Source: Methylobacterium nonmethylotrophicum (GTDB lineage Bacteria; Pseudomonadota; Alphaproteobacteria; Rhizobiales; Beijerinckiaceae). From it: a stretch of DNA of 64,000 nt. A program made the translations under genes and the position numbers. The DNA is taken from NCBI RefSeq assembly GCF_004745635.1, contig NZ_SRLB01000008.1:186001-250000 (forward strand), given 5' to 3'. The notes beneath the pieces are model-generated. The model had not been told where the DNA came from, did not search any database, and saw nothing but the letters and a program-made list of their open reading frames with translations. Shown in pieces: positions 19,894 to 35,773 of the stretch. Each line of letters opens with the position of its first letter. Position 1 is the stretch's first letter.

Positions 19894-20790
19894 ATGACGA
19901 CCACCTCCGCCACGTTGTCCGGCGCCCAGGCCTCCCCGCCCGCCCCGCCCCGGAGCGTCGCCGTGCGCTGCCGGCGGATCGAGCCGGGGGACGACGCGCC
20001 CCTCGCGGCCCTGCTCGCGCAGGGCTTTCCGGCCCGGGGCCTCGCCGCCTGGCGCGGGACGCTCGCGCGCCTCCGGGCCTGGACGGAGGCGGAGGCGCTG
20101 CCCGGATTCGGCTTCGTGCTGGAGGAGGAGGGCCGCCTCGTCGGCTGCCTGCTCACGCTCTACGCGGCCGGCGGCGGGCGCTGCAACATGTCGAGCTGGT
20201 ACGTCGCGGAAGGCTACCGGCGCTACGGCTCGATGCTCGTGAACCTCGCCCTGCGGGATCGCTCGGTGACCTACCTGAACGTCACCTCGGAGCGGCACAC
20301 CCGCCCGATCATCGAGGCGCAGGGCTTCCGCCGCTTCGCCGACGGCGTGGTGCTCGCGGCCCCGCTCCTGGCGGTCGCGGGTCTCGCGCGCGCGCGGGTC
20401 TCGCGGCACTTGCCCGCGGAGGCCGCGGCGGATCCGGCCGAGCAGCGGCTCGTCGCCGACCACGCCCGGCTCGGCTGCATCACCTTCTGGTGCCTCGCGC
20501 AGGGCCGGGCCTTCCCCTTCGTCGCCGTGCGCCGGCAGGTGCGGGGCGCCCTGCCGATCGCCCAGATCGTCTATTGCGCCGCGGAGACGGACTGGCGGCT
20601 CGTGTCGCACGCGGTCGGCCGGGCGCTCGCCCGGCACGGCCTGTTCCTGATGCTCGTCGATGCGCGGGGCCCGCTTCCCGGGCTGCCCGGCCGCTTCCTT
20701 CGCGGCCGCATGCCGAAATACGCCCGCGGCTCCGCGCCGCCCCATTGCGGCGACCTCGCCTACACGGAGATCGCCCTGATCGGCACCTGA
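19894..20790 (+). CDS. GNAT-family N-acyltransferase-like protein
   Basis: A 298-residue protein whose first half resembles a GNAT acyltransferase: VRCRRIEPGDDAPLAALLAQGF, then FGFVLEEEGRLVGCLLTLY, WYVAEGYRRYGSMLV and YLNVTSERHTRPIIEAQGFRRF. The acetyl-CoA loop (Q/RxxGxG/A) is represented only by EGYRRYGS, so CoA binding is not certain. The second half (about 160-298) has no motif I know. It is divergent from the flippase across 243 bases. A role in acylating a sugar of the exopolysaccharide, or a peptide or amine substrate, is inference from position. ATG 19894 was chosen over a very long upstream frame that only shadows the flippase. Confidence 0.65.
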   Translation: MTTTSATLSGAQASPPAPPRSVAVRCRRIEPGDDAPLAALLAQGFPARGLAAWRGTLARLRAWTEAEALPGFGFVLEEEGRLVGCLLTLYAAGGGRCNMSSWYVAEGYRRYGSMLVNLALRDRSVTYLNVTSERHTRPIIEAQGFRRFADGVVLAAPLLAVAGLARARVSRHLPAEAAADPAEQRLVADHARLGCITFWCLAQGRAFPFVAVRRQVRGALPIAQIVYCAAETDWRLVSHAVGRALARHGLFLMLVDARGPLPGLPGRFLRGRMPKYARGSAPPHCGDLAYTEIALIGT

Positions 20791-20815: not shown

Positions 20816-22618
20816 TCACAGCCGGATCCCGCCTCGGGTCACGGCCGTGAAGAGATCCCGATCGAGGCGCCGGTAGCCCGCCTTCAGGTCGATGTAGAGC
20901 GGGTCGTCGATCCGATCGGGGTCGAAGCCCTCGGCGGCGAGCGCGGCCTTGCGCTGCTTGAACGTCTCGGTGTGGACGAAGCCCGGCGCGATCCGCAGGA
21001 AGACCGGGCGGGCATAGGCCGGCAGCAGCGCGGCGAGCTGCAGATGGAGGGCGGCCGGGTCGAAATCGGGCGTCACCGTGAGGGCGGCCATGCCGGCCCG
21101 GCCCTCGGTGCCCGGCACCGCCACGCCATAGACGATCGCCTCGCTGACGCCCGCGCAACGCCCGAGCGCCTCGGCGACCTCGGTGGTCGCGACGTTCTCG
21201 CCCTTCCAGCGGAAGGTGTCGCCGATCCGGTCCACGAAGTAGAAGAAGCCCTGGGCGTCACGCCGCATCAGGTCGCCGGTCCGCATCCAGGCGTCCCCTG
21301 GCCGCAGGACGTCGCGGACGATCTTGCGGTCGCTCTCCTGGGCGCTCGTATAGCCCTCGAAGCTGTGCTCGGCCCGCGACGACGAGAGCCGGCCCAGCAG
21401 CTCGCCCGTCTCGTCCGGTTCCGCCGGGACGCAGTGCCCGGATGCATCGCGCAGGGGCTGCCCGGTCTCGACATCGTGGCGCACGATCAGGGCGGGCGAC
21501 CGCCGCGCCATGAAGGGCGGCACCCGGCCGACCGCGCCGACCCGGCCCTCGACGTTGTAGAGCGACACCGTGCCCTCGGTGGCGGCGTAGAATTCGAGCA
21601 CCCGCGGGATCGCGAACCGCGCCTGGAAGCGCTCCCAGACCTCCGGCCGCATGCCGTTGCCCGTGCACAGGCGCAGGCGGTGCCGGGTCTCGGCGGGATC
21701 GGGGGCCGCCGCGGCGAGGTAGCGGCAGAGCTCGCCGATATACTGGAACAGCGTCGCGCCGGTCTCGGCCACGTCGGCCCAGAACCGGCTCGCGGAGAAC
21801 TTCTCCCGGATCACCACGCTGCCGCCGCCGATCAGGACGCTGCCCGGGGCCACCACGCCCCCGACGCTGTGGTAGAGCGGCAGGCAATCGTACATCCGGT
21901 CTTCCGGCGTGGGATCGATCAGCCCGGCGAACCAGTGGGTCCAGCTCATGACCCGGTGGTGGCTGACCCGCGCGGCCTTCGGCAGGCCGGTGGTGCCGGA
22001 GGTGTAGATCAGGAGCGCCTCGTCCCGCAGGCCCACCGCGGGTCCCTCGCCGTCGCGCAAGGGGTCCCCCGCGTGGGGCGCCGCCGCCTCGGCGAGGCGG
22101 ACGGCCTCGCCGGCCGGCTCCGGTGTGCACCCGTCGCCTTGCCAGACGAGCGCCGGCGTCTCGGCGAGATGCGGCCAGGCGCTCGCCACCGCGTCCGCGA
22201 GCCCGGTCTCCGCGATGAGCACGCGCGGGCCCGCGACCGCGATGCAATGCGCCAGGCCCTGCGCCAGCAGGCTCGTGTTCAGCAGGGCCACCCGCACGCC
22301 GACGCGGGTGAGGCCGAGCCAGATCGCGAGATAGTCCGGCCGGTTGCGCATGAGGAGCGCGACGGTCTCCCCCTTGCCGAGGCCGCGGGCGGACGCCCAG
22401 CGGGCATAGCGGTTCTGGCGCGCGGCGAGGTCGGCGAAGCTCAGGGTCTCGTCCGTGCCGATCAGCGCCGGCGCCGGGCCGTACTGCGCGGCGAGCTCGT
22501 CGATGACGCAGGGAAAGATCCGCGCCGGCTGCGCGTCGATCCGGGCGGTGCGCTCCAGTGCCGCGATCCAGCCGCTGATCGATGCGGATCGGGTGCGCGG
22601 GTCGGGCGATGCGGCCAT
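20816..22618 (-). CDS. FATP-type long-chain acyl-CoA synthetase
   Basis: A 600-residue ANL-superfamily ligase. Key motifs are the P-loop YTSGTTGLPKAARVSHHRV, the FATP-like YIGELCRYL, the A5 region EFYAATEGTVSLYNVEG, and the D-x6-G-D motif AWMRTGDLMRRDAQGFFYFVDR. The hinge is followed by FRWKGENVATTEVAEAL, and the C-terminal end is FKQRK. It should activate fatty or other carboxylic acids to acyl-CoA through an acyl-AMP. The VERG-free FATP layout (GDTFRWKGENVATTEV) separates it from FadD. It starts 43 bases after the MetA-like gene on the same strand and could be the third gene of that operon, though its chemistry does not belong to methionine synthesis. ATG 22618 has CGGAG upstream. Confidence 0.9.
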   Translation of the reverse strand: MAASPDPRTRSASISGWIAALERTARIDAQPARIFPCVIDELAAQYGPAPALIGTDETLSFADLAARQNRYARWASARGLGKGETVALLMRNRPDYLAIWLGLTRVGVRVALLNTSLLAQGLAHCIAVAGPRVLIAETGLADAVASAWPHLAETPALVWQGDGCTPEPAGEAVRLAEAAAPHAGDPLRDGEGPAVGLRDEALLIYTSGTTGLPKAARVSHHRVMSWTHWFAGLIDPTPEDRMYDCLPLYHSVGGVVAPGSVLIGGGSVVIREKFSASRFWADVAETGATLFQYIGELCRYLAAAAPDPAETRHRLRLCTGNGMRPEVWERFQARFAIPRVLEFYAATEGTVSLYNVEGRVGAVGRVPPFMARRSPALIVRHDVETGQPLRDASGHCVPAEPDETGELLGRLSSSRAEHSFEGYTSAQESDRKIVRDVLRPGDAWMRTGDLMRRDAQGFFYFVDRIGDTFRWKGENVATTEVAEALGRCAGVSEAIVYGVAVPGTEGRAGMAALTVTPDFDPAALHLQLAALLPAYARPVFLRIAPGFVHTETFKQRKAALAAEGFDPDRIDDPLYIDLKAGYRRLDRDLFTAVTRGGIRL

Positions 22619-22661: not shown

Positions 22662-23663
22662 TCAGCGGGCGGCCTGCCGGGCGAGGCACCGGCGGTCGGC
22701 GACGCAGGCGAGCCAGTTGGCGAAGAGCCGGCGCGCCGCGGGCTGCCAGGCCGCCGGCCTGAGCGGCGCGGCGTCGAGCCCGGGAACGCCGCAGACCTGC
22801 GCGAACTCGCGCCAGGACCGGGCCTTGGCGGCGAAGTCCGCCAGACGGGCCTCGCCCGCGGCCGTGTAGTAGTGGCGGGGCAGGCCGGGACAGGTCGCGG
22901 CCGTCCCGTCGAGGAAGCGCCCGAGGTCGCGGCGGTACTCGCGGGCGAGGCTGTCGGGCTCGTATTCCGGATGGCCCTGCAGGAAGACCAGGAGGCTGCG
23001 CCCCTCGCGCACGAACAGGTCGACCCCGACCTCGGCCGAGCGCCGCAGGACCGTGTAGCCGCAGGCGGTCAGATCGTCCTCGGCCAGGTCGTTCCAGCGG
23101 GAATGGGGCACCGGGACCGTGTCCGGCTCGCCGGCCAGCAGAGGATGCGGGGCGGTGCGGTCGCAGGCGAACACGCCCGAATGCTTGCGCGTCAGCGGCT
23201 GCCGCCGGATGCCGTCGCGGTGCAGGACGGCGGCGTGCGAGGCGAGGCAGGAGAACAGGGTCGAGACGGTGCTCTCCGCCGCCCAGTCGATCACCGCGGC
23301 GAGGGGAGCGAAGAACGGCTCGTCCTCGAGCCGGGCCTGGCGCGGCTCGCAGCCGGTCACCACGAGGGCATCGAGCCCCGCCTCCGCCAGCGCCTCGTGC
23401 GGGGCGTAGTGCGCGGCGATGCGGGCCGCGACGGCCGGCGCGCGCGGCGTCGCCAGGAACGCGAACCGCGCGAGGGCGGCGTCCGGGCCGAGGAGCTGCC
23501 GGAACTGCGCCTCGGTGCGGATGAAGGCCGCGTCCGGCATGTTGTTGAGCAGCCCGACCCGCAGGGGCGGCGCGGCGTCCTCCCGCGACGGCGGGCGCGG
23601 GACCACCGACCAACCCGGCATCTCGAGGGCGGACATGTGCGGCGATGGCCCGTGCTCCAGCAT
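22662..23663 (-). CDS. MetA-like homoserine O-acyltransferase (glutamine-amidotransferase fold)
   Basis: A 333-residue protein of the MetA family. It begins VGLLNNMPDAAFIRTEAQF, the family hallmark. The catalytic triad is readable: Cys139 in LFSCLASHA, and His231 and Glu233 in GHPEYE, close to Cys142/His235/Glu237 of E. coli MetA. It should acylate homoserine (succinyl- or acetyl-CoA donor; the choice cannot be read safely) as the first committed step of methionine synthesis. The O-acylhomoserine sulfhydrylase gene lies directly upstream on the same strand, 131 bases away, giving a compact direct-sulfhydrylation route. ATG 23663 is preceded by GGGAGAG. Confidence 0.82.
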   Translation of the reverse strand: MLEHGPSPHMSALEMPGWSVVPRPPSREDAAPPLRVGLLNNMPDAAFIRTEAQFRQLLGPDAALARFAFLATPRAPAVAARIAAHYAPHEALAEAGLDALVVTGCEPRQARLEDEPFFAPLAAVIDWAAESTVSTLFSCLASHAAVLHRDGIRRQPLTRKHSGVFACDRTAPHPLLAGEPDTVPVPHSRWNDLAEDDLTACGYTVLRRSAEVGVDLFVREGRSLLVFLQGHPEYEPDSLAREYRRDLGRFLDGTAATCPGLPRHYYTAAGEARLADFAAKARSWREFAQVCGVPGLDAAPLRPAAWQPAARRLFANWLACVADRRCLARQAAR

Positions 23664-23794: not shown

Positions 23795-25087
23795 TCAGGC
23801 GGCCCGCATCAGCGAGCCGGCCGCGTGCAGCGCCTGTTCGAGATCCTCGGTGATGTCGTCGACGTGCTCGATGCCGACGCTGAGGCGGATCATCTCGGGA
23901 TAGACCCCGGCCTTGCGCTGCTCCTCGGGAGTCATCTGCCGGTGGGTGGTCGAGGCCGGATGGCAGGCGAGCGACTTCGCGTCGCCGATATTGACCAGCC
24001 GCTTCACGAGCTTCAGGGCGTCGTAGAACGACTTGCCGGCCGTGAAGCCGCCGTGCACGCCGAAGGTCAGGAGCGAGGAGCCCTGGCCGCCGAGGTATTT
24101 CTGCGCCATCGCGTGGTGCTCGTTCTCCGGAAAGCCCGCGTAGTTGACCCAGGCGACGGCCGGATGCGCCCGCAGGAAGGCGGCGACCTTGGCGGCGTTG
24201 GCGACGTGGCGCTCCACCCGCAGGGCCACCGTCTCGATGCCCTGCAGCAGCAGGAAGGCGCTCATCGCGGGCAGCACGGCGCCGGTTGTGCGCTGATAGA
24301 CGCTGCGGGCCCGCGCCGCGAAGGCGCCGGCGCCGAAATGCTCCGCGTAGACGAGCCCGTGATAGGAGACGTCCGGCGTCGAGAACATCGGGAAGCGCCG
24401 GGGCTCCGCGGCCCAGTCGAACCGGCCGGAATCGACGATCACGCCGCCGAGCGTGGTCCCGTGACCGCCCATGAACTTGGTGAGCGAGGCGATGACGATG
24501 TCCGCCCCGTGCTCGATCGGCCGCAGCAGTATCGGTGTCGCCACGGTGTTGTCGACGATCAGCGGGACGCCGCGGGCATGTGCGACGTCCGCGAGGGCGG
24601 CGATGTCGCAGATGTTGCCCGCCGGGTTGCCGATGGACTCGCAATAGACCGCCCTGGTCTCGTCGTCGATCAGCCGCGCGATGTCGGCCGGGGCGTCGCT
24701 GTCCGCGAAGCGCGTCGTGATGCCCTGGCGCGGCAGCACGTGCGCCAGCAGGGTGTGCGTGGTTCCGTAGAGCTGGGGCACCGCGACGATGTTGCCGCCG
24801 TGGTCGGCGAGCGTCGCGATCGCGTAGTGGAGGGCCGCCTGCCCGCTGGCGACGGCGAGCGCCGCATGGCCGCGCTCGAGGTCGGCGACCCGACGCTCCA
24901 GCACCGCCACGGTCGGGTTGGCGATCCGGCTGTAGCGGAAGCCCTCTTCCTCGAGGTTGAAGAGGGCGGCGCCGTGGTCGGCACTGTCGAAGGCGTAGGC
25001 GACGCTCTGGTAGATCGGGACCGCCACCGCATGGGTTGCCGGATCATGCTCGAAGCCGGCGTGAACGGCGATCGTTTCGCTGCGCAT
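23795..25087 (-). CDS. metY: O-acylhomoserine sulfhydrylase (MetY/MetZ type)
   Basis: A 430-residue PLP enzyme of the Cys/Met-metabolism family. It starts TIAVHAGFEHD and has YSRIANPTVAVLERRVA, the cofactor-phosphate segment ASGQAALHYAI, YCESIGNPAGN, VDNTVATP, the PLP-lysine SLTKFMGGHGTTLGG, and the C-terminal HPASTTHRQM and RLSVGIEH. It condenses sulfide with O-acetyl- or O-succinylhomoserine to give homocysteine. The length and the YxxE..HHxxA segment fit the O-acetylhomoserine type. It is first in an apparent metY-metA-like operon. The 186-base leader has a nested hairpin but no SAM-II or S-box element that I can recognise. Confidence 0.92.
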   Translation of the reverse strand: MRSETIAVHAGFEHDPATHAVAVPIYQSVAYAFDSADHGAALFNLEEEGFRYSRIANPTVAVLERRVADLERGHAALAVASGQAALHYAIATLADHGGNIVAVPQLYGTTHTLLAHVLPRQGITTRFADSDAPADIARLIDDETRAVYCESIGNPAGNICDIAALADVAHARGVPLIVDNTVATPILLRPIEHGADIVIASLTKFMGGHGTTLGGVIVDSGRFDWAAEPRRFPMFSTPDVSYHGLVYAEHFGAGAFAARARSVYQRTTGAVLPAMSAFLLLQGIETVALRVERHVANAAKVAAFLRAHPAVAWVNYAGFPENEHHAMAQKYLGGQGSSLLTFGVHGGFTAGKSFYDALKLVKRLVNIGDAKSLACHPASTTHRQMTPEEQRKAGVYPEMIRLSVGIEHVDDITEDLEQALHAAGSLMRAA

Positions 25088-25561: not shown

Positions 25562-26038
25562 GTGTCTGCCAATGCCTCCACCAAGCCGATGATCGCGTCG
25601 CTGACCTCGGTCGAGCTGAGCCCGGCCCCGATCGAGCCGAGCTGGATCCGCGACGGCAACCCGGTCGCGCGGAACGCGACCCTGTCCCGGAGCGCGGACG
25701 GGCTTGCCAGCACGCTGGTCTGGGACTGCACGGCGGGCAAGTTCGACTGGATCTACGACATCGACGAAACGATCTACTTCCTCGAAGGGTCGGCCACGAT
25801 CTCCGACGGCCATTCCCCCGCCAGGACGTTCGGGCCGGGCGATGTGCTGTTCCTGCCGCGCGGCGCGGTCTGCCACTGGCACGTCGAGACCTATGTCCGG
25901 AAGGTCGCGTTCTGCCGGCGGACGCAGCCCTGGGCCATCGGCTTCATGATGCGGGCCATCGGGAAGATCGGCCGCATGCTGACGCGCGGCGGCTCCAAGC
26001 GGAGCGGCGGCTTCCAGGTCGGGCCCGAGCCGGCCTGA
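25562..26038 (+). CDS. Cupin-domain protein (DUF861-like)
   Basis: A 158-residue single-domain cupin. The barrel runs from about residue 45 to 120: TLVWDCTAGKFDWIYDIDETIYFLEGSATISD, then FGPGDVLFLPRGAVCHWHVET. It has the Glu of motif 1 (DETIYFLEG) and the His pair CHWHVE of motif 2, similar to DUF861/(S)-ureidoglycine-type cupins. A metal site is possible but only partly conserved. The start is GTG 25562 behind AGGGGAA. It is followed 61 bases later by a class IV aminotransferase on the same strand, so both may be one transcript. The substrate is unknown. Confidence 0.75.
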   Translation: MSANASTKPMIASLTSVELSPAPIEPSWIRDGNPVARNATLSRSADGLASTLVWDCTAGKFDWIYDIDETIYFLEGSATISDGHSPARTFGPGDVLFLPRGAVCHWHVETYVRKVAFCRRTQPWAIGFMMRAIGKIGRMLTRGGSKRSGGFQVGPEPA

Positions 26039-26099: not shown

Positions 26100-26981
26100 A
26101 TGGCTGTGACCGATCCCGATACCTGGACGTTCTTCGAGGAGGCCTGGCACCCGGGGAACGTGCGCCTGATGGGCCCGCGCACCCACGGTGCCTGGCTCGG
26201 ATCGACGGTCTTCGACGGCGCGCGCGCCTTCGAGGGCGTGACGCCCGACCTCGACCTGCACCTCGCGCGGGTCAACCGCTCGGCCGAGGCGCTGGGGCTG
26301 TCGCCGAAGGTCGACGTCGCGCGCTGGGAGGCGCTGGTGCGCGAGGGGCTCGCTCGGTTCGCGCCCGACGCGGAGCTCTACATCCGCCCGATGTACTGGG
26401 CCGAGGACGGGTTCGCGGGGGGCGTCCGCTTCGATCCGGATTCCACCAACTGGTGCCTCTGCCTCTATCGCGCACCGATGCCCGAGCCCACCGGCGTGCA
26501 GGCGACGCTCTCGCCCTTCCGGCGGCCGACGATGGAGACGGCCCCCGTCGATGCCAAGGCGGGCTGCCTCTACCCGAACGGCGCCCGCGCCCTCTCCGAG
26601 GCCTTCGCGCGCGGCTACGGCAATTGCCTGATGCGCGACGCGCTCGGCAACGTCGCCGAGTTCGCCAACGCCAACGCCTTCCTGGCCAAGGACGGGGTGG
26701 TCCACACCCCCGTCCCGAACGGCGCGTTCCTGGCCGGCATCACCCGGGCGCGGGTCATCGGCCTGCTCCGGGACGCCGGTGTGACGGTCGTGGAGCGGAC
26801 GCTCACCTACGCGGACTTCCTGGGCGCCGACGAGGTGTTCACCGCGGGCAACTTCGCCAAGGTCGCGCCGGTCGTCGCGCTCGACGAGGTCGCCTTCGAG
26901 GCGGGTCCGATCTTCCGCCTCGCCCGCCGGCTCTACTGGGATTTCGCGCACGACCGGCGCACGCGAAACCTCGCGGCCTGA
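26100..26981 (+). CDS. Class IV PLP aminotransferase (branched-chain aminotransferase family)
   Basis: A 293-residue fold-type IV aminotransferase. Visible are GSTVFDGARAFEG (substrate loop), LYIRPMYW, the PLP lysine Lys153 in VDAKAGCLYPNGARAL, NVAEFANANAFLAKDG, the ITRARVIGLLRD phosphate region, and EVFTAGNFAKVAPV. These are the BCAT/D-amino-acid aminotransferase hallmarks. The residues around Lys153 (DAKAGCLYPN) depart from the standard IlvE TSGNY segment, so it is probably a paralogue with its own substrate rather than housekeeping IlvE. It converges on the ThDP enzyme across a strong hairpin. Confidence 0.85.
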   Translation: MAVTDPDTWTFFEEAWHPGNVRLMGPRTHGAWLGSTVFDGARAFEGVTPDLDLHLARVNRSAEALGLSPKVDVARWEALVREGLARFAPDAELYIRPMYWAEDGFAGGVRFDPDSTNWCLCLYRAPMPEPTGVQATLSPFRRPTMETAPVDAKAGCLYPNGARALSEAFARGYGNCLMRDALGNVAEFANANAFLAKDGVVHTPVPNGAFLAGITRARVIGLLRDAGVTVVERTLTYADFLGADEVFTAGNFAKVAPVVALDEVAFEAGPIFRLARRLYWDFAHDRRTRNLAA

Positions 26982-27016: not shown

Positions 27017-27065
27017 AGCGCGGGATCCCCTTGCCCGGCGATGCCGGGCAAGGGGATCCCGCGCT
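27017..27065. terminator. Perfect 23-bp inverted repeat between convergent genes
   Basis: Bases 27017-27039 and 27043-27065 are perfect reverse complements around a three-base loop GAT. AT-rich sequence follows on the right (ATATTTCTAT) and precedes on the left (AGATAAAGAT). It lies between two convergent genes and should act as a bidirectional terminator. The arm is much longer than a usual intrinsic terminator, so a repeat-element origin is possible. Confidence 0.85.
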
Positions 27066-27229
27066 ATATTTCTATGAGAATAGATTAAGCGGAGATCGGA
27101 TGACGCATTGCCCGCGCCACGGACGGACGACGCGCGGCCCGGCACCGCGTCGTCCGTCCGGATCTTCGCGGTGTCGCGCGTTCCCGTCGGGAGCCCGGCG
27201 ACCCGTCTTTTCCGGGATCCGCTCGAGCC

Positions 27230-28924
27230 CTACCGGGCAGCCAGGGCCTTGTCCCGGATCGCCGTGAGGCTCTGCCCCGGCGCGATGGCATCGACGCTCA
27301 TCGTGAGATGGACGATCGCCGGCTTGCCGGAGGCGCGCGCGGCCTCGAAGGCCGCCGGGAAGTCCTCGGTGCGCTCCACGGTGATGCCGAAGCCGCCGAA
27401 GGCCCGGGCGTAGGCCGCGAAGTCCGGGTTGACGAGATCGGTCGCGCAGACGCGGCCGGGGAAGTCGCGCTCCTGGTGCATCCGGATCGTGCCGTAGCTG
27501 GCATTGTCGCAGACGATGCAGACGATCGGCAGCCCGTACTGGACGGCCGTGGCGAATTCCTGCCCGTTCATGAGGAAGTCGCCGTCGCCCGCGAGGGCGA
27601 CCACGACGCGGTCGGGATGGAGCCGCTTCATCGCCACCGCCGCGGGCACGCCGTAGCCCATCGAGCCCGAGGTCGGGGCGAGATGCGTGGCGAGCTGCCG
27701 GAAGCGGTAGAAGCGGTGGATCCAGGCGGCGTAGTTGCCCGCCCCGTTGCAGAGGATCGCGTCCGCGGGCAGCGTCTCGCGCAGGGCGACCATCACGGCG
27801 CCGAGATTGACGGGGCCGGGCTGCGGGGTCGCGCGCTCGCTCCAGTCGAGATACTCCGCATGGGCGGCACGGGTCTCCTGCCCCCACCGGATCGTCGCGG
27901 GTGCCGGAAGCCGCTCCAGCGCCTCGGCCATCCGGGTCGGCGCGGCGTTGATCGCCAGGTGCGGGACGTAGACCCGGCCGAGTTCCTCCGGGCCGGGATG
28001 GATGTGGACGAGGCGGGTGCGCGGGCTCGGGATGTCGAGGAGGGCGTAGCCCTGGCTCGGAACCTCGCCGAGGCGGCCGCCGAGGACGATCAGGAGGTCG
28101 GCCGCCCTGGCCCGGGCGACGAGCCTCGGGTTGGCCGCGAGCCCGAGATCGCCCGCATAGGCCGGGTGCAGCGGGTCGAACAGCGGCAGGCGCCGGTAGC
28201 TCGTGGCCACCGGCAGGTCGAAACGCTCCGCGAAGCGGTGGATGGCCGCGCGCGCCTCCTCGCTCCAGCGACTGCCGCCGAGCACCAGCAGCGGGCGCTC
28301 GGCCTCCGCGAGCAGGTGGGCGAGCCGCTCCATCTCCTCCGCGCCCGGCGCCGCCTCGACCGGCGTCCAGGGGGCGGCGGGCGGTGCCGTCACGGTCTCC
28401 TTCAGCATGTCCTTGGGCAGCGCCACCACCACCGGGCCGGGCCTGCCGGAGGTGGCGGTGTGGAAGGCGCGCGAGACGTACTCGGTCACCCGCGACCCCT
28501 GGTCGATCTCGGTCGCCCATTTCGAGATCGGACCGAAGGCGGCCCGGTAATCGATCTCCTGCCACGCCTCGCGGTCGCGCAGCGCGCGCTCGATCTGGCC
28601 GACGAACAGGATCATCGGCGTCGAGTCCTGCTGGGCGATATGGATGCCCGCCGACGCGTTCGTCGCACCCGGGCCCCGTGTGACGAAGCAGATGCCGGGC
28701 CGCCCGGTCGCCTTGCCGTGCGCCTCCGCCATCATCGCCGCGCCGCCTTCCTGGCGGCAGACGGTGATCGCGATCCCGGACCCGTGCAGGGCGTCGAGGA
28801 CGGGCAGGAAGCTCTCGCCCGGCACGGTGAAGACGTGGCGGACGCCGTTCGCCACGAGTTGTGCCACGAGCGCCTCCGCCGCGCTGGAGGCGGTGCGGGC
28901 GGCGTCTGCAGGAGCTTTGGTCAT
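27230..28924 (-). CDS. Thiamine diphosphate enzyme, acetolactate synthase large-subunit-like
   Basis: A 564-residue ThDP-dependent enzyme with the three-domain POX/AHAS layout. The PYR domain has the activating Glu59 in CRQEGGAAMMAEAHGK. A central domain contains LGGRLGEVPSQGY. The PP domain has the ThDP-Mg motif GDGDFLMNGQEF with Asn at the end of CIVCDNASYG. Family members decarboxylate 2-oxo acids or form acetolactate. It lacks the usual AHAS neighbour (no small subunit gene nearby), and the FAD-loop residues are not clear. It may therefore be an IlvB-like paralogue, sulfoacetaldehyde/benzoylformate-type or oxalyl-type enzyme. It is convergent with an aminotransferase, a common pairing for 2-oxo acid chemistry. 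ATG 28924. Confidence 0.82.
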   Translation of the reverse strand: MTKAPADAARTASSAAEALVAQLVANGVRHVFTVPGESFLPVLDALHGSGIAITVCRQEGGAAMMAEAHGKATGRPGICFVTRGPGATNASAGIHIAQQDSTPMILFVGQIERALRDREAWQEIDYRAAFGPISKWATEIDQGSRVTEYVSRAFHTATSGRPGPVVVALPKDMLKETVTAPPAAPWTPVEAAPGAEEMERLAHLLAEAERPLLVLGGSRWSEEARAAIHRFAERFDLPVATSYRRLPLFDPLHPAYAGDLGLAANPRLVARARAADLLIVLGGRLGEVPSQGYALLDIPSPRTRLVHIHPGPEELGRVYVPHLAINAAPTRMAEALERLPAPATIRWGQETRAAHAEYLDWSERATPQPGPVNLGAVMVALRETLPADAILCNGAGNYAAWIHRFYRFRQLATHLAPTSGSMGYGVPAAVAMKRLHPDRVVVALAGDGDFLMNGQEFATAVQYGLPIVCIVCDNASYGTIRMHQERDFPGRVCATDLVNPDFAAYARAFGGFGITVERTEDFPAAFEAARASGKPAIVHLTMSVDAIAPGQSLTAIRDKALAAR

Positions 28925-29662: not shown

Positions 29663-29953
29663 TCAGTTCTTCAGCGCGAGGACCATGATGGCGATGGACT
29701 GGACCGACCGAAAATTCTGCGGATTGATCTGGGTTGATGGGATCATCACGTCAAACTCGACCTCAAGGGAAATCATGAGATTGACGAGATCGAGCGAGGA
29801 CAGCCCGATATCGAGCAGAGCGTCATCCGGCTCGAAGGCGAGATCGCGCGACTGATCCGCCAGGATGCCCTTCGCGAGGCTCATGGTCCGATGGGTGATG
29901 TCCACGAGAGCGCTGGTGTGGCTCTGAGGAAATGTTTCAGCAAGATTAATCAT
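29663..29953 (-). CDS. Discrete acyl/peptidyl carrier protein (CP1)
   Basis: A 96-residue carrier protein. The phosphopantetheine site is Ser53 in LLDIGLSSLDLVNLM, followed by helix III ISLEVEFDVMIP and a helix IV segment NFRSVQSIAIMVL, the standard four-helix ACP/PCP outline. It is encoded divergently from an acyl-CoA dehydrogenase homologue and an amino acid:carrier-protein ligase. This is the same kind of neighbourhood in which class II synthetase-like ligases charge a dedicated carrier protein. The start is ATG 29953; an upstream in-frame ATG would add 59 residues with no CP homology, and the ribosome site is weak. G+C is lower than in neighbouring genes. It is not the fatty-acid AcpP, whose motif is DSLD. 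Confidence 0.85.
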   Translation of the reverse strand: MINLAETFPQSHTSALVDITHRTMSLAKGILADQSRDLAFEPDDALLDIGLSSLDLVNLMISLEVEFDVMIPSTQINPQNFRSVQSIAIMVLALKN

Positions 29954-30199
29954 AGCTGGCCCGGGACGATTCAAACATGGGCTTGGATCTACATCAAATA
30001 CCGGCGGTTTGGCGAGGCGCTCGCTGCGCACTTCCGAATTTAGGGTTAATTCCGTCAAGTGCGCGATACGCAGTCTCCACGTATACCAATAACCCTGCCT
30101 TAAGGCGAAGAAGGTCATATGAAGCGCCACGGGCCGTTGGACGGCTGTGACGACTTACGGGGCGGCCCGGCGCCGCGATAGAGCGTTGCGGGAGCAGGC
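29954..30199. promoter_or_regulatory. Divergent promoter region of carrier-protein/ligase cluster
   Basis: These 246 bases are markedly AT-richer than the genes on both sides (for example around 29990-30110) and include the 10-bp palindrome GCCTTAAGGC at 30097-30106. They must hold the start signals for CP1 on one strand and the six-gene ligase operon on the other. Shared control of both arms is likely but inferred. Confidence 0.4.
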
Positions 30200-31402
30200 A
30201 TGACCAATCAACACAGCGCAGCCTCGACGTCCTGCGGCGCGGGCGCGGCCGGGCTGAAGGAGCGAACCGACGCCGTCGCCGCGACGGCGGCCCTGCACGC
30301 CGAGGCCGTCGATGCCGATGCCCGGTTCCCGGCCGAGGCGTGTGACGCGCTGCGGACGAACCGCCTGTTCGGCGCGGCCATCCCGATCGAGCTGGGGGGC
30401 GAGGGCGCATCGGTACGGATGCTGGCCGACATCTGCTACGCGCTCGGCCGTGCCTGCTCCTCGACCGCGATGATCTTCGCGATGCACCAGACCAAGGTGG
30501 CCTGCCTCGTCCGGCACGGTCGGGGCACGCCCTGGCTGGAGACGCTCATGCGGCGGATCGCCGACGAGCAGCTGCTCCTGGCCTCCTCGACGACCGAGGG
30601 CAACGGCGGCGGCAATGTCCGCGCCTCCGCCGCGGCGATCGAGCGCGAGGCCGGCCTGATCCGCCTCGATCGCGCCGCGACCGTGATCTCCTACGGCGCG
30701 CAGGCCGACGGCATCGTCACGGTGGCCCGGCGCTCGGCCGAGGCCGCGCCCTCCGACCAGGTGCTCTGCGCCTTCCTGAAGGAGGACTACACCCTCGAGC
30801 CTCTCGCCGGCTGGGAGACGCTCGGGATGCGCGGCACCTGCAGCAGCGGCTTCCGCCTGCTCGCGCGGGGCTGCGAGGCGCAGGTGCTCGAGACGCGCTA
30901 CGCCGACATCCACGGCCGCACCATGACGCCGGTCTCCCACATCCTGTGGTCGAGCGCCTGGGCCGGCATCGCCGCGCGGGCGATCGAGAAGGCGCAGGCC
31001 TTCACCCGCACGGCGATGCGCGGGGCCGGCGGCGCGGCGCCTCCCGGCGCGATCCACTACGCCCGGGCGGTCTCGAACCTCAAGCAGGCCCGCGCCCTGA
31101 TCGAGCAGGCGATCGAGCGCTTCGAGGCGGCGGCCGACGACCCGGCGATGCTCGCGAGCCTCGATTTCCAGACGGCGATCACGATGCTCAAGGTCGACGT
31201 CTCGGACCTCGCGGTGTCCGCCGTGATGGCCGCCCTGCGCACCAACGGGCTGGCCGGCTACCGCCAGGACGGCCCGTTCAGCATCGGGCGCGACCTGCGC
31301 GATGTCCTGTCCGCGCCGCTCATGATCCACAACGACCGCATCGTCGCGAACCTCGCGACATCCACCCTCATGGCCCCCGTGGCCGCCACCATCAGCGCGT
31401 AG
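30200..31402 (+). CDS. Acyl-CoA dehydrogenase homologue of carrier-protein cluster
   Basis: A 400-residue flavoprotein of the acyl-CoA dehydrogenase superfamily. The N-terminal helical domain has RLFGAAIPIELGGEGASVRMLADI. The flavin/substrate segment has ASSTTEGNGGGN, the beta domain has LAGWETLGMRGTCSSGF, and the C-terminal helical domain has the typical RAVSNLKQARALIEQAIE and a terminal GRDLRDVLSAPLMIHNDRI. Related enzymes in pyrrole pathways oxidise an aminoacyl group while it is thioester-bound to a carrier protein. The next gene is an amino acid:carrier-protein ligase and CP1 is divergent from this gene. It is therefore reasonable, though unproven, that it dehydrogenates an aminoacyl-CP. 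ATG 30200 follows GGGAG. It is the first gene of a six-gene operon. Confidence 0.87.
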   Translation: MTNQHSAASTSCGAGAAGLKERTDAVAATAALHAEAVDADARFPAEACDALRTNRLFGAAIPIELGGEGASVRMLADICYALGRACSSTAMIFAMHQTKVACLVRHGRGTPWLETLMRRIADEQLLLASSTTEGNGGGNVRASAAAIEREAGLIRLDRAATVISYGAQADGIVTVARRSAEAAPSDQVLCAFLKEDYTLEPLAGWETLGMRGTCSSGFRLLARGCEAQVLETRYADIHGRTMTPVSHILWSSAWAGIAARAIEKAQAFTRTAMRGAGGAAPPGAIHYARAVSNLKQARALIEQAIERFEAAADDPAMLASLDFQTAITMLKVDVSDLAVSAVMAALRTNGLAGYRQDGPFSIGRDLRDVLSAPLMIHNDRIVANLATSTLMAPVAATISA

Positions 31403-31422
31403 CCGAGTCCGAGGATCCGACC

Positions 31423-32355
31423 ATGAACATGCAGGTCGTCAACCTACCCTCCCAGCCGAAGGGGACGGATCCCCTGGATGCCCTGTTCGACGCGATGTTC
31501 CGCCCGATGGCGGCGCAGGGCGTCTACGCGCGCACCGGCGCCTACGAGGCGGTGGTGGAGGGGCTCGCGGCGCTGATCTCCCGCTTGCGCGAGGACGGGA
31601 CCGAGGTGTTCCGCTTCCCGCCGGTGATGAGCCGGGCGCATCTCGAGCGGCACGGCTACCTCAACAGCTTCCCGAACCTTTTGGGCTGCGTCTCCTGCCT
31701 CGAAGGCACCGATGCGCAGATCATGGCGATGGCCGCCCGGCAGGCGACGGGCGGCGACTGGACGGAGGGCCTGCGCACCGCCGACCTCGTGCTCACCCCG
31801 GCGGCCTGCTACCCCGTCTATCCGATCGCGGCGGCGCGGGGCCCGGTGCCGGAGGCCGGCTACCGCTTCGACGTGGCCTGCGACTGCTTCCGCCGCGAGC
31901 CCTCCCAGCATCTCGACCGGCTGCAATCCTTCCGGATGCGGGAATACGTCACCATCGGCACGCCCGAGCAGGTCGCCGCCTTCCGCGAGCGCTGGATCGG
32001 GCGCGCCACCGCGCTCGCCGACACCCTCGGCCTCCCCTACCGGGTCGAGCAGGCGAGCGACCCCTTCTTCGGCCGCGTCGGCCAGGTCATGGCCATGGCG
32101 CAGCTCCAGCAGGCCCTGAAGTTCGAGCTGCTCGTCCCCCTGCGCGGCGAGGGCTCGGGCACGGCCTGCATGAGCTTCAACTATCACCGCGAGCATTTCG
32201 GCACGACCTGGGACCTGCGCTGCGCGGACGGGGAGTTCGCCCATACCGGCTGCGTCGCCTTCGGCATGGACCGCCTGGCCGTGGCCCTGTTCGCGACCCA
32301 CGGCCCCGAGACGGCGGACTGGCCCGGCTCGGTCCGCGCCGCCCTCTCGCTCTGA
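31423..32355 (+). CDS. Amino acid:[carrier protein] ligase (truncated class II aaRS homologue)
   Basis: A 310-residue protein that is the catalytic core of an atypical seryl-tRNA synthetase without a tRNA-binding domain. Motif 2 is DCFRREPSQHLDRLQSFRMREY (about 154-175) and motif 3 is GMDRLAVALF (281-290). Candidate zinc ligands are Cys129, Glu174 and Cys277. As I recall, Bradyrhizobium Bll0957 uses Cys131, Glu176 and Cys279, which gives the same 45- and 103-residue spacings. Such enzymes form aminoacyl-AMP from Gly, Ala or a similar amino acid and load it on the phosphopantetheine of a small carrier protein; they do not charge tRNA. CP1 or CP2 in this cluster should be the acceptor. ATG 31423 lies 20 bases after the dehydrogenase stop. 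Confidence 0.9.
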   Translation: MNMQVVNLPSQPKGTDPLDALFDAMFRPMAAQGVYARTGAYEAVVEGLAALISRLREDGTEVFRFPPVMSRAHLERHGYLNSFPNLLGCVSCLEGTDAQIMAMAARQATGGDWTEGLRTADLVLTPAACYPVYPIAAARGPVPEAGYRFDVACDCFRREPSQHLDRLQSFRMREYVTIGTPEQVAAFRERWIGRATALADTLGLPYRVEQASDPFFGRVGQVMAMAQLQQALKFELLVPLRGEGSGTACMSFNYHREHFGTTWDLRCADGEFAHTGCVAFGMDRLAVALFATHGPETADWPGSVRAALSL

Positions 32356-32437
32356 GCCCCTCTCCCTCCGAGCCTCTGCGCACCCTCCGGCCGGAGGGCG
32401 CGTTCCCGACCAGCCCGCAGAAGGCGAGACCCGCGCG

Positions 32438-33415
32438 ATGTCCCTCGACCCGCATGTCAGGCGCTTCCTCGACATGATGGCGATCGGCGCGCCCGGCGAC
32501 CCGGCGCACGTCGCCGGGCGCCGGGAGAGCCTGCGCGCGCTGGCGGGGCTCGCGGCGAGCCCGGCCGTCGCGACCGGCATCCGCTCGCTCAGCCTGCCGC
32601 TTCCCGCCGGCCCGCGCCCGGCGCGCCTCTACACGCCGCTGGACGCGCCCGAGCGTGGCCCCGGCCTCGTCTACTTCCACGGCGGCGGCCTCGTCGCCGG
32701 CGATCTCGAAACCCACGACGCGGTGTGCCGGCGCCTCGCCGTCGCGGCCGGCTGCCGGATCGTGGCGGTCGATTACCGGCTCGCCCCCGAGCATCCCTTC
32801 CCGGCCGCGATCGAGGACGCCGTGGCGGCGTTCCTGGAGGTGACGGCCCGCGCCGGGGAACTCGGGATCGCGCGCGGCCGGCTCGCCGTCGGCGGCGACT
32901 CGGCCGGCGGCGGGCTCGCAGCCAGGGTCTGCCACGAGCTGCGCGGGATGGGGCCGGCGATCGCCGCCCAGCTCCTGATCTGCCCGGTGCTCGACCTGCG
33001 CTGCGACACGGCCTCTCACCGGGACTTCGCCCAGGGCTACTTCCTCGACGCCAGGACCATCGCCGCCGACATCGCGGCCTGCGGCGTGGCGGGGCTCGTC
33101 GACAGCCCCCGCGTCTCGCCCCTGCGCGAGCCCGACCTCGCCGGCCTGCCGCCGGCCCGGATCCACACGGCCGCCTTCGACATGGTCCGCGACGACGGCG
33201 CCGCCTATGCCCGCCGCCTCGAACGGGCCGGCGTTCCGGTGGAATATGCGTGCCACGAGGGCATGATCCACTTCTTCTACGCGCTCGGCCGCCTCGTCCC
33301 GCGCTCCCAGTCGATCCTCGCGGAGATCGGCGCCGGGTTCGGAGCCCTGCTGCGCGGCGAGCCCGTTCCCGCCCCGAATTCCATTCCCCAGCCGCTTCCA
33401 CGGAGAGCGTCATGA
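32438..33415 (+). CDS. Alpha/beta hydrolase, HSL / lipase family IV
   Basis: A 325-residue hydrolase. The oxyanion motif is HGGG (81-84 in VYFHGGGLVAGD), the nucleophile is Ser155 in VGGDSAGGGLAA, and the late His is in CHEGMIHFFYALG, with an acidic partner in the PARIHTAAFDMVRDDG region. These define the hormone-sensitive-lipase-like esterases. It has no signal peptide and overlaps the next gene (CP2) by four bases (ATGA), so it is translated with the carrier protein. In this context it could release a product from a carrier thioester, or hydrolyse an ester in the final product. Both are inferences. ATG 32438 begins directly at the family-like N-terminal helix. Confidence 0.87.
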   Translation: MSLDPHVRRFLDMMAIGAPGDPAHVAGRRESLRALAGLAASPAVATGIRSLSLPLPAGPRPARLYTPLDAPERGPGLVYFHGGGLVAGDLETHDAVCRRLAVAAGCRIVAVDYRLAPEHPFPAAIEDAVAAFLEVTARAGELGIARGRLAVGGDSAGGGLAARVCHELRGMGPAIAAQLLICPVLDLRCDTASHRDFAQGYFLDARTIAADIAACGVAGLVDSPRVSPLREPDLAGLPPARIHTAAFDMVRDDGAAYARRLERAGVPVEYACHEGMIHFFYALGRLVPRSQSILAEIGAGFGALLRGEPVPAPNSIPQPLPRRAS

Positions 33416-33669
33416 GCCTGCGTCCGACCCTGATCGCCGAGATCGAGTCCATCACCCGCGACAACGACAAGCGGATGCCGCCGCTGACCGACGACCTCGT
33501 GCTGCTCGACACCGAGTTCGACTCGCTCTGCTTCGCGCTCCTCGTCGCACGCATGGAGGACCAGACCGGGATCGACCCGTTCAGCGACCTGGAGGTCGCT
33601 GACCTCCCGGTCACCCTCGGCGACCTCGTCGCGCTCTACGAGCGCGCCGCCCGCCCCGTCGCGGCCTGA
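33412..33669 (+). CDS. Second discrete carrier protein (CP2)
   Basis: An 85-residue acidic protein with the carrier fold outline. The phosphopantetheine serine is Ser38 in LLDTEFDSLCFALLVARMEDQTG, then the helix III segment FSDLEVADLPVTLGDLVALYE. The usual LGxDS is replaced by TEFDS. It is shorter than CP1 and shares little sequence with it, so the two probably serve different ligases. Its ATG overlaps the hydrolase stop, and it sits five bases before an ANL adenylating enzyme, its most likely loading partner. It was recognised by the Asp-Ser-Leu motif and length. There is no condensation, ketosynthase or thioesterase domain in the cluster. Confidence 0.82.
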   Translation: MSLRPTLIAEIESITRDNDKRMPPLTDDLVLLDTEFDSLCFALLVARMEDQTGIDPFSDLEVADLPVTLGDLVALYERAARPVAA

Positions 33670-33674
33670 CCGCG

Positions 33675-35042
33675 ATGTTCCTTCGCGACGGATTGAGGCG
33701 CGAGGCCGGGCGCTCCGACCTGTTCCTCTCGGACCGGTCGGAGCGCAGGGACCGGGCCGCCATCCGGGAGGCGGCATGCCGGGCCGACCTCGCCGGGCTG
33801 ATCGCCGGACGTTCGGTCATGGTCGCCACGGCCGGTCAGATGCCGGCCGCGCTCGCGATGCTCGGGCTCGACGGGCTCGCGCGCCGGATGGTCCTGGTCC
33901 CGCCGGGCCTGACCGACGATCAGGTCGCCCGGATCGCCGCCGACGCGGAGATCGATCTCTGCGTCGCCGACGACGACGCGCCGGTCCCGCCGGCGCTCGC
34001 CGGGCTGCCGCGCCTCGCGCCGGCCGAGGCGGCGAGCGCCGGCGAGGCGCCCGCGCCGCAGCCGACCGAGTGGGTGCTCACCACCTCCGGCACGACCGGG
34101 GCGCCCAAGCTCGTCGCCCACACCCTCGACGGGCTCGCCGGCGGGATCAACACCTCGGCGACCCCGGAACCCGGCACGGTCTGGAGCACCTTCTACGACA
34201 TCCGGCGCTACGGCGGCCTCCAGGTCTTCCTGCGTGCGGTGTTCGGGCCGTCCTCGCTCGTCCTGTCGGACCCGGCCGAGCCGATGCGCGACTACCTGCT
34301 GCGCGCCGCCGCGGCGGGCGTGACCCATATCCTCGGGACGCCCTCGCATTGGCGGCTCGCGCTGATGAACGCCGCCCTCACGGATCTCGCGCCGCGCTAC
34401 GTGCGGCTCTCCGGCGAGATCGCCGACCAGGCGATCCTCGACCTGCTCCGGGCCACCTTCCCGCAGGCCCGGATCGCCCACGCCTACGCCTCGTCCGAGG
34501 GCGGCGTCGGCTTCACGGTCGAGGACGGCCGTGCGGGCTTCCCGGCGAGCCTCGTCGGCAGCCGGTCCGGCATCGAGATCGTGGTGCGCGACGACGCGCT
34601 GCTCGTGCGCTCGAAGCGCACGGGCCGGCGCTATCTCGGTGCGCAGGCCGAGCCGCTCACCGACGCGGAGGGCTTCGTCGATACCGGAGACCTCGTGGAG
34701 CTGCGCGGCGAGCGCTACCACTTCCTCGGCCGGCGCTCGGGCGTGATCAATGTCGGCGGCATCAAGGTGCAGCCGGAGGAGGTCGAGAGCGTCGTCAACA
34801 GCCATCCGCTGGTCTCGATGTCCCGGGTCCGGCCCCGGCCGAACCCGATCCTCGGTGCGGTGGTCGAGGCCGAGATCGTCCTCGTCGAGGGTGCGGATGC
34901 GTCCGACGCGGCGGCGCTGAAGCGTGCGATCATCGCCCATTGCCGCCCGCACCTGCCCAAGCACAAGGTGCCGGCGAGCGTGCGCTTCGTGCCCGACCTG
35001 CCGCTCTCCACGGGCGGCAAGCTCCTGAGGAGAGCCCCGTGA
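33675..35042 (+). CDS. ANL-superfamily adenylating ligase (acyl- or aminoacyl-activating)
   Basis: A 455-residue adenylate-forming enzyme, shorter than CoA ligases because the N-terminal subdomain is reduced. Motifs: P-loop TTSGTTGAPK (136-145), ILGTPSHWRLAL, the A5-like HAYASSEGGVGFTVEDG, the A7 region GFVDTGDLVELRGERYHFLGRRSG, the hinge INVGGIKVQPEEVE, and the C-terminal catalytic Lys in LSTGGKLLRR. It activates a carboxylic acid as AMP ester. With CP2 immediately upstream the acceptor is likely CP2 rather than CoA. The aromatic or acyl substrate cannot be read. Its stop overlaps the SDR start (GTGA). Confidence 0.87.
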   Translation: MFLRDGLRREAGRSDLFLSDRSERRDRAAIREAACRADLAGLIAGRSVMVATAGQMPAALAMLGLDGLARRMVLVPPGLTDDQVARIAADAEIDLCVADDDAPVPPALAGLPRLAPAEAASAGEAPAPQPTEWVLTTSGTTGAPKLVAHTLDGLAGGINTSATPEPGTVWSTFYDIRRYGGLQVFLRAVFGPSSLVLSDPAEPMRDYLLRAAAAGVTHILGTPSHWRLALMNAALTDLAPRYVRLSGEIADQAILDLLRATFPQARIAHAYASSEGGVGFTVEDGRAGFPASLVGSRSGIEIVVRDDALLVRSKRTGRRYLGAQAEPLTDAEGFVDTGDLVELRGERYHFLGRRSGVINVGGIKVQPEEVESVVNSHPLVSMSRVRPRPNPILGAVVEAEIVLVEGADASDAAALKRAIIAHCRPHLPKHKVPASVRFVPDLPLSTGGKLLRRAP

Positions 35043-35773
35043 ACGCGCGCCGCACCATCGTCGTCACCGGCGGGACCCGCGGGCTCGGCCTCGCGATCGC
35101 CACCACGCTGGCCGCCGAGGGCTTCCGTGCGGTCGCCGTGGCCCGCCGCCCCTCGGAGGCCTTTGAGGCCGCCGCCGCGGCGGCGGGGCCGGAGGCCATG
35201 CATTTCGTCGCCTGCGATCTCGGCGAGACCGAGGCGCTCCAGCCCCTCGTCCGCACGATCCGCGCCGAGCACGGACCCATCTACGGTCTCGTCAACAACG
35301 CCGCGATCGGCACGCCCGGCCTCCTCGCGACGATGCCCGAGCGCGAGGTCGCCGACCTCGTGCGCCTCAACACCCTCGCCCCGATCCTGCTGACGAAATA
35401 CGCCGTGCGCGGGATGATGGCGGCCGGGGCGGGGCGCGTCGTCAACGTCAGCTCGATCATCGCCTTCACCGGCTACAACGCCCTTTCGGTCTACGCGGCC
35501 ACCAAGGCCTCGATGATCGGCTTCACGCGCTCGCTCTCGCGGGAGGTCGGCCGCCTCGGCGTGACGGTCAACGCGGTGGCGCCGGGCTTCGTCGAGACCG
35601 CGATGACGGAGGGCATGGACGAGCTCGACCGCAGCCGCATCGCCAAGCGCAGCGCGCTCCAGCGCCTACCCGAGCCGCAGGACGTGGCGGACGCCGTCGC
35701 CTACCTGGTCTCGGACAAGGCCCGCAACGTCACGGGCACGGTCCTCACCGTGGATGCCGGCAGCACGGCCTGA
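35039..35773 (+). CDS. SDR-family oxidoreductase (FabG-like)
   Basis: A 244-residue classical short-chain dehydrogenase: cofactor loop TGGTRGLG, VNNAAIGTPG, catalytic Ser in NVSSIIAF, Tyr and Lys in VYAATKASMIGF, and VNAVAPGFVETAMTEGM. The closing GTVLTVDAGSTA is as in 3-oxoacyl-ACP reductases. An Arg near VAVARR suggests NADP(H). The GTG start at 35039 overlaps the ANL ligase stop, so it is translationally coupled and is the last gene of the operon. It probably reduces or oxidises a carbonyl/hydroxyl of the carrier-bound intermediate. The substrate is inferred from the operon only. Confidence 0.9.
   Translation: MNARRTIVVTGGTRGLGLAIATTLAAEGFRAVAVARRPSEAFEAAAAAAGPEAMHFVACDLGETEALQPLVRTIRAEHGPIYGLVNNAAIGTPGLLATMPEREVADLVRLNTLAPILLTKYAVRGMMAAGAGRVVNVSSIIAFTGYNALSVYAATKASMIGFTRSLSREVGRLGVTVNAVAPGFVETAMTEGMDELDRSRIAKRSALQRLPEPQDVADAVAYLVSDKARNVTGTVLTVDAGSTA

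Follow-up and report, generated by a model that had tools for sequence, protein, structure and literature searches.

Positions 19894 to 35773 of a 64,000-nucleotide stretch of the Methylobacterium nonmethylotrophicum genome (contig NZ_SRLB01000008.1, positions 186,001 to 250,000; this whole stretch is referred to below as the window) carry 14 genes that include an aminoacyl-tRNA synthetase-like amino acid:[carrier protein] ligase of the Bll0957 clade and could encode a single conserved small-molecule pathway. In this pathway of about 13 to 14 genes, the ligase would load a small amino acid onto a carrier protein (CP1), a flavoprotein with the acyl-CoA dehydrogenase (ACAD) fold would oxidize the tethered residue, and enzymes of the MetA and MetY types would provide a homoserine-derived amino acid. 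We assign a probability of roughly 0.45 to the existence of one such pathway, served by Bll0957-clade ligases, with these three steps taken jointly. The family identities of the genes and their co-inheritance are nearly certain.

A sequence-only reading of this DNA had delimited a seven-gene unit at positions 29663 to 35773, running from CP1 to a reductase of the SDR family. All seven open reading frames are present there in the order given, and the families assigned to them agree with Pfam and NCBIfam, except for the second carrier protein, CP2, which had no PF00550 match at E ≤ 0.001 and no NCBIfam match and is recognized as a carrier by the D-S-L attachment motif found in 24 of 24 sequences of its family, including that of the window. 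The description of a two-carrier, two-ligase set without condensation or ketosynthase domains holds as well, as Pfam and NCBIfam scans reported neither domain among the 14 genes. The proposed extent of the unit stood only in part: the seven genes do recur together, but the unit stops too early, as homologs of the seven upstream genes (19894 to 28924) share the same neighborhoods. Those missed include MetA and MetY, as well as the FATP-type ligase that travels with CP2, the ANL ligase, and the SDR. The statement that most gene starts overlap was too strong: overlaps of 4 nucleotides (nt) are found at two of the five junctions, HSL/CP2 and ANL/SDR, and the other three have gaps of 20 nt (ACAD-ligase), 82 nt (ligase-HSL), and 5 nt (CP2-ANL). 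The CP1 and ACAD genes are divergent, with their starts, as chosen, 246 nt apart. The 14 genes are as follows, with the strand in parentheses and the number of loci with a homolog, out of the 81 described below, at the end of each line.

19894..20790 (+), tandem-GNAT acyltransferase, 298 amino acids; weak Pfam match to PF00583, 21.2 versus 20.7 bits; 66/81
20816..22618 (-), FATP-type long-chain acyl-CoA synthetase; NF006134, 744 bits versus a cut-off of 625; 24/81
22662..23663 (-), homoserine O-acyltransferase of the MetA/HTS family; NF003776, 392 bits versus a cut-off of 358; 25/81
23795..25087 (-), MetY-type O-acylhomoserine gamma-replacement enzyme; TIGR01326, 589 bits versus a cut-off of 495; 30/81
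25562..26038 (+), small cupin; PF05899; 10/81
26100..26981 (+), class IV aminotransferase; NF009896, 466 bits versus a cut-off of 262; 18/81
27230..28924 (-), thiamine diphosphate (ThDP)-dependent enzyme of the acetolactate synthase superfamily; NF006052, 884 bits versus a cut-off of 539; 17/81
29663..29953 (-), CP1, aminoacyl carrier protein encoded divergently to the operon; PF00550, match to chain C of 4h2s; 79/81
30200..31402 (+), ACAD-fold flavoprotein without the catalytic Glu; PF02771/PF00441; 80/81
31423..32355 (+), amino acid:[carrier protein] ligase of the Bll0957 clade (type A), 310 amino acids; NF005479; 81/81
32438..33415 (+), HSL-type alpha/beta hydrolase; PF07859, 226 bits; 23/81
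33412..33669 (+), CP2, second carrier protein; D-S-L motif, without Pfam or NCBIfam match; 24/81
33675..35042 (+), short ANL (AMP-forming) ligase; PF00501/PF13193; 27/81
35039..35773 (+), SDR, FabG-like reductase; TIGR01830, 199 bits, under the cut-off of 298; 24/81

Two flanking regions of the window were not counted as parts of the pathway. The first, at 8853 to 19650, is an exopolysaccharide-type cluster (Wzz, cellulase-like proteins, and GT4 glycosyltransferases). The second, at 36434 to 39379, is a gene whose large product combines repeated ricin-type lectin domains with a region resembling the radical copper oxidase GlxA, which scores 137 bits where the cut-off is 800.

Conserved neighborhoods and genome co-occurrence

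A scan of named genomes yielded 80 relatives of this locus (the best of 589 candidates, mostly from Bradyrhizobium), all of them of type A by identity, with ligases at least 62% identical to that of the window. Together with the window, these 81 loci were analyzed with our own gene finder, family profiles, and self-set thresholds in flanks of up to 10 kb, shorter at contig ends, and the counts depend on all of these settings. CP1, the ACAD homolog, and the ligase occur together in about 79 loci, with the other genes shuffled around this trio in several genera; the counts of the trio (ligase 81, ACAD 80, CP1 79) argue against clustering by chance. The eleven accessory genes are found in anywhere from 66 loci (GNAT) to 10 (cupin), and 22 loci contain at least six of them. 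The genes are arranged very differently in Methylobacterium, Bosea, Rhodopseudomonas, Bradyrhizobium, Caulobacter, Methylocapsa, and a metagenome-assembled genome labelled Betaproteobacteria, so shared synteny alone does not explain the association. At the thresholds used, none of the eleven accessory genes was detected in the 13 control loci with type-B ligases, whose flanks (about 2.6 to 10.5 kb per side) were shorter overall than those of the type-A loci; the ACAD homolog was present in 13 of these and CP1 in 12, and in one of them, L115, an SDR scores 77 bits and falls short of the threshold.

Certain other families recur in the same neighborhoods. In Bradyrhizobium, the region beyond CP1 encodes members of PF01008 and PF01048, each in 45 of the 81 loci (e.g., L039:5818-7812), a pair that resembles the methionine-salvage MtnA and MTA phosphorylase. 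Two distant members (L071:6986-8422 and L101:7119-8603) encode a pyridoxal phosphate-dependent decarboxylase of the PF00282 family in the interval that separates MetY/MetA from CP1/ACAD, and polysaccharide deacetylase-like genes adjoin the MetA or ThDP gene in nine loci (e.g., L243:7683-8357 and L110:15968-16699), with a tenth found in the GNAT gene region of L234.

In most Bradyrhizobium loci, only CP1, ACAD, ligase, and GNAT are encoded locally, and the compact cluster is seen in some (L079, L087, L090, L103, and others). The modules are split in this genus yet retained: the ANL ligase was found in all 23 type-A genomes tested (chosen from the 80 loci), 22 of which lack it in the examined ligase locus, L079 being the exception. 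All 20 of the ANL regions that were fetched contain SDR (one match, in L184, is a fragment of 54 bits where the contig ends); 18 of them also contain CP2 and 17 contain FATP, mostly in the order FATP-CP2-ANL-SDR. The CP2-ANL-SDR set moves as a module of its own, which fits a second carrier receiving its acid via the ANL ligase and the SDR. A third module is seen in L243 to L245, where MetY-MetA lie about 8 kb away from HSL-aminotransferase.

The same association was found at the level of whole genomes. Of 398 genomes sampled, 28 score above the cut-off for the ligase: 13 of type A (at least 60% identity to the window), 12 placed by the tree in type B, and three unplaced (G043, G107, and G197). 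The ANL ligase is found at E ≤ 1e-100 in 14 genomes, the 13 type-A genomes and G191 (type B); at E ≤ 1e-60 there are 16, the additional ones being G050 and G228 (37% identity), and the regions of these distant ANL genes (L240 and L241) contained no member of the 14 families, with the gene model finding few or no genes there. The GNAT protein is found in 38 genomes at E ≤ 1e-10 and in 14 at E ≤ 1e-79, the same 14 that have the strong ANL match. Fisher's test on 13/13 versus 1/385 gives p = 1.7e-23 with relatedness ignored; within genus g1 the counts are 4/4 versus 0/2 (p = 0.067), and within Bradyrhizobium (g7) they are 6/6 versus 0/3 (p = 0.012), the three being the ligase-free genomes of that genus among the matches listed.

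The remaining genes were followed in 23 genomes chosen from this sample (12 of type A; 8 in which other ligases exceed the cut-off, including the unplaced G043 and G107; and 3 without the ligase). The MetY ortholog, at 689 bits or more and at least 72% identity, is present in 12/12 type-A genomes versus 0/11 others (best other score 454 bits, at most 54% identity), and MetA at E ≤ 1e-50 shows the same distribution, 12/12 versus 0/11, with a weak 30% match in three of the others. The aminotransferase is found at 63% identity or more in 12/12 type-A genomes, with relatives at 53 to 59% in 5/11 others, and ThDP enzyme relatives are found in 12/12 and 8/11, respectively. MetA, MetY, ANL, and GNAT mark the pathway; the aminotransferase and the ThDP enzyme are not specific by themselves. 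Assignment of MetY and MetA to housekeeping methionine synthesis was considered and is weakened, as MetY orthologs at 72% identity or more occur only in type-A genomes and MetY copies at 54% or less occur in all 23 genomes tested. MetA, being the only match of its kind in the M. nonmethylotrophicum genome at E ≤ 0.001, may also have a housekeeping share.

A lack of co-conservation was among the outcomes that the sequence-only reading had named as refuting it, and the 81 neighborhoods and the genome co-occurrence show the genes to be co-conserved. A similar picture would arise where the modules are unlinked, as they are in most sampled Bradyrhizobium, if the same lineages had retained two or three independent pathways by coincidence, and this would also account for G191, which keeps one module without a type-A ligase. 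We regard such a coincidence as improbable, since presence and absence agree within both genera listed above and the modules are physically joined in many lineages.

The ligase, its carrier, and the ACAD-fold flavoprotein

The identification of the synthetase-like enzyme as a Bll0957-type amino acid:[carrier protein] ligase was correct: it scores 461.5 bits against NF005479 (cut-off 357), just misses the Pfam cut-off (27.7 versus 29.3 bits), and has Bll0957 (3mey) as its best solved relative (E 3e-137). It consists of the SerRS-like core only, matching positions 302 to 503 of the 518-position serine-tRNA ligase models, and has no tRNA-binding domain. In a tree of 34 ligases, a branch with 100/100 support separates type A (21 rows, including the window ligase and that of a Bradyrhizobium diazoefficiens strain) from type B (13 rows, including a second ligase of the same Methylobacterium genome). 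Bll0957 is not itself a row in this tree, and its assignment to type A follows from its near identity to the type-A ligase L022 from Bradyrhizobium genome G035 (679 bits), compared with 351 bits for the type-B copy of the M. nonmethylotrophicum genome. That second ligase (L113, G000:C48:378000-396000) has its own carrier protein and ACAD homolog, and this trio is followed by genes for a DUF1839 protein and a GH2-like protein.

CP1 matches "Aminoacyl carrier protein 1" (4h2s chain C), the carrier co-crystallized with Bll0957, at E 7e-17, and this is its only solved relative at E ≤ 1e-6; the serine of the attachment motif is present in 79 of 79 CP1 sequences. Since the ligase clade includes Bll0957 and CP1 matches the crystallized carrier of Bll0957, the ligase very probably charges CP1. 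Charging of the carrier with Gly or Ala has reportedly been shown for the orthologous Bll0957 pair. By homology, Gly or Ala is likely to be the amino acid loaded here as well, and charging of these two amino acids by Bll0957-type ligases is described in one report (PMC5370406). According to another (PMC10888616), bll0958 is annotated as acyl-CoA dehydrogenase and both bll0957 and bll0958 are upregulated in a phaR mutant, a joint rise that fits co-expression of the ligase and the ACAD homolog. A link to cispentacin was rejected, the match of CP1 to AmcB being weak (32 bits versus a cut-off of 80).

For the flavoprotein, the sequence-only reading had suggested oxidation of the aminoacyl thioester as in pyrrole pathways, and here the sequences give it no support. 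Position 376, which we take to be the usual catalytic Glu site from an alignment to 7p98 and the MCAD sequence, is Ile in 80 of 80 homologs, and position 246, presumably the equivalent of the IVD-254 Glu site (by hand alignment with the IVD sequence), is Ala in 72, Ser in 7, and Gly in 1, leaving no acid at either position in any of the 80; moreover, glycine has no beta carbon to desaturate. Pyrrole-type dehydrogenation is thus weakened by the absence of the Glu. Three neighboring residues, H247, N378, and R380, are invariant in all 80 sequences, and position 379 is Asp in 79 and Glu in one; the four type-B ACAD homologs in the alignment share I376, H247, and N378-D379-R380.

In profile searches, the top matches of the flavoprotein are dehydrogenases (7p98, 83 bits; 9w60, 70 bits), followed closely by KijD3, DnmZ, and RubN8, which are nitrososynthases (63 to 66 bits). 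The AlphaFold model (pLDDT 85) has a mixture of DszC, TdsC, ACADs, and nitrososynthases at the top of the Foldseek ranking. VIA-align places human SCAD first (Z 38.2, root-mean-square deviation [rmsd] 3.4 over 366 residues), with many ACADs and one flavin monooxygenase (5z8t, Z 37.5) within 1 Z unit; ColB1 (7xp7), a flavoprotein acting on an assembly-line-tethered cysteine, has a Z of 37.0 (rmsd 3.0 over 360 residues). The absence of the dehydrogenase base, the resemblance to nitrososynthases and DszC as much as to dehydrogenases, and the precedent of ChmG favor N-oxygenation over dehydrogenation of aminoacyl-CP1, a preference that we give about an even chance of being correct. In the chalkophomycin study (PMC10849742), ChmG is described as an ACAD-like protein with Met in place of Glu that N-oxygenates prolyl-ACP, the product being released by the hydrolase ChmF.

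The protein could instead act as a genuine dehydrogenase or oxidase, using another base, such as His247 or Asp379, to turn the CP1-bound residue into an imine or a dehydro-amino acid, after the model of the prolyl-PCP oxidases and the cysteinyl-PCP flavoprotein ColB1. The ACAD fold itself and the structural ranks of SCAD and ColB1 would agree with this, as would the invariant residues listed above and the acid at position 379, three residues from 376, which could serve as another base. A PF01613 flavin reductase gene, sought by similarity to one copy, lies in the L036 and L102 loci, which would suit an oxygenase, and no relative was found in the other 79 of the 81 loci, which would suit a dehydrogenase. 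Oxygenases and dehydrogenases are not told apart by the fold ranking. Even so, a dehydrogenase appears rather unlikely, with both known catalytic Glu positions non-acidic in 80 of 80 homologs, C-C desaturation being impossible for glycine, and nitrososynthases scoring beside the ACADs.

Proposed pathway and alternative products

In the first proposed step, the ligase would activate a small amino acid, Gly or Ala judging by homology, and load it onto CP1, where, in the second, the ACAD-fold flavoprotein would oxidize it, in the version we favor by oxygenation at the nitrogen, as ChmG does on prolyl-ACP. MetA and MetY are the families of homoserine O-acylation and gamma-replacement, respectively. 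In the third step, MetA would acylate homoserine and the MetY-type enzyme would swap the gamma-acyl group for a nucleophile, producing a homoserine-derived amino acid. Fourth, the ANL ligase would load a second acid onto CP2, with the SDR reducing or oxidizing this acid, and fifth, the GNAT protein, using acyl-CoA from the FATP-type ligase, would join or cap the amine, and the HSL-type hydrolase would release or trim the product. The aminotransferase and the ThDP enzyme, the least pathway-specific of the genes, may supply a building block. Steps three to five, as written, are tentative and somewhat doubtful. Rhizobitoxine, suggested by the O-acylhomoserine chemistry, was rejected as the product, as the rtx genes are not known to match this set. 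In one genome of the family Methylobacteriaceae, genes judged by eye to be CysD/CysN sulfate adenylyltransferase-like lie near ACAD-ligase-MetY-MetA (L123:4696-7513), hinting at a sulfur nucleophile.

A more specific possibility, which we consider quite improbable, is that Bll0957-type ligases tether Gly or Ala so that the ACAD-fold oxygenase can oxidize its nitrogen and that the resulting unit is built, via MetY gamma-replacement and acylation by GNAT, into an amino acid that contains an N-O group (hydroxamate or aminooxy), which would represent a new alphaproteobacterial class of metallophores or antimetabolites assembled without a nonribosomal peptide synthetase (NRPS).

Several further observations weigh against the single pathway proposed here. 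All of its reactions are deduced from sequence and models, and the Gly/Ala specificity comes from homology only. In 43 of the 81 loci, no more than one of the eleven accessory genes is found nearby, and several genes are missing from the examined locus in L035, L038, L048, and others. The type-A genomes are mostly Bradyrhizobium or Methylobacteriaceae, so their counts are not independent. Relatives of the ThDP enzyme and the aminotransferase also occur in genomes without a type-A ligase, and G191 encodes ANL, CP2, SDR, FATP, and GNAT, but its ligase is of type B alone and orthologs of MetA and MetY are absent.

Other products could be envisaged for the same genes. Instead of a free small molecule, the pathway might yield an acyl or aminoacyl group that decorates an exopolysaccharide or another surface glycan: the exopolysaccharide-type cluster adjoins the pathway genes in the window, as do its homologs in G271 (L034/L126/L235), G151 (L127/L247), and Bosea sp. 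Leaf344 (L037), polysaccharide deacetylase-like genes recur, and type-B loci carry the DUF1839 and GH2-like proteins (L113, with similar gene lengths in others). However, homologs of this cluster were found in none of the Bradyrhizobium, Rhodopseudomonas, or Caulobacter loci examined, and there is no obvious role for MetA and MetY in glycan decoration, which we therefore consider unlikely. A lipid product has a similarly low probability. In that case, the FATP-type ligase and the GNAT protein would make an N-acyl amino acid, with CP2-ANL-SDR providing a hydroxy-acyl chain, in agreement with the location of FATP next to CP2-ANL-SDR in most of the fetched Bradyrhizobium regions. The GNAT model (pLDDT 87) has a tandem-GNAT fold and resembles other tandem GNATs, among them N-myristoyltransferases (10% identity, with Z about 11 and an rmsd of about 5.5 over about 253 residues), but this similarity is weak and general: various acetyltransferases come first in Foldseek, and the GNAT profile had no match among Protein Data Bank sequences up to E 1.

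Comparison with known systems

Among the matches listed, the literature searched, which included few subscription papers, holds no recognizable description of this gene set. Its closest relatives are the type-B amino acid:[carrier protein] ligase loci (e.g., G000:C48, L113), which share the carrier protein, the ACAD homolog, and the ligase but have none of the accessory genes in 13 loci, and the Bll0957/bll0958/aminoacyl carrier protein 1 system of B. diazoefficiens. The latter has a homologous ligase and carrier, and the Bradyrhizobium loci of its clade carry CP1-ACAD-ligase; the difference lies in the wider gene set, undescribed among the literature matches listed. The ACAD homolog also resembles the nitrososynthases KijD3, DnmZ, and RubN8 (comparable profile and Foldseek scores) and DszC/TdsC (comparable Foldseek scores), but the substrates of these enzymes are sugars or thiophenes instead of amino acids bound to a carrier. 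The prolyl-carrier oxidases of pyrrole pathways (RedW, PltE, Bmp3) also have the ACAD fold and act on an aminoacyl carrier but, unlike the homolog studied here, keep the catalytic Glu, which is essential in AnaB and Bmp3 and is described as conserved in proline oxidases in the ChmG study (PMC10849742).

The proposed pathway offers a likely home to a synthetase-like ligase family whose attachment of amino acids had, according to a 2022 review, no known role (PMC9437257). The sample contains at least nine Bradyrhizobium genomes, and the six with the ligase also carry ANL, GNAT, MetY, and MetA.

The ChmGHIJF module of chalkophomycin is similar in combining a carrier protein, a stand-alone ligase, an ACAD-like flavoprotein without the Glu, and an alpha/beta hydrolase. 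As described in the same source (PMC10849742), it differs in using a proline adenylase instead of the synthetase-like ligase, in having a second ACAD (ChmH), and in feeding an NRPS, and that text makes no mention of MetA/MetY, a GNAT protein, or an SDR with a second carrier. Next to this module, the flavoprotein of the M. nonmethylotrophicum locus is a candidate further case of a stand-alone flavoenzyme oxygenating a carrier-bound amino acid.

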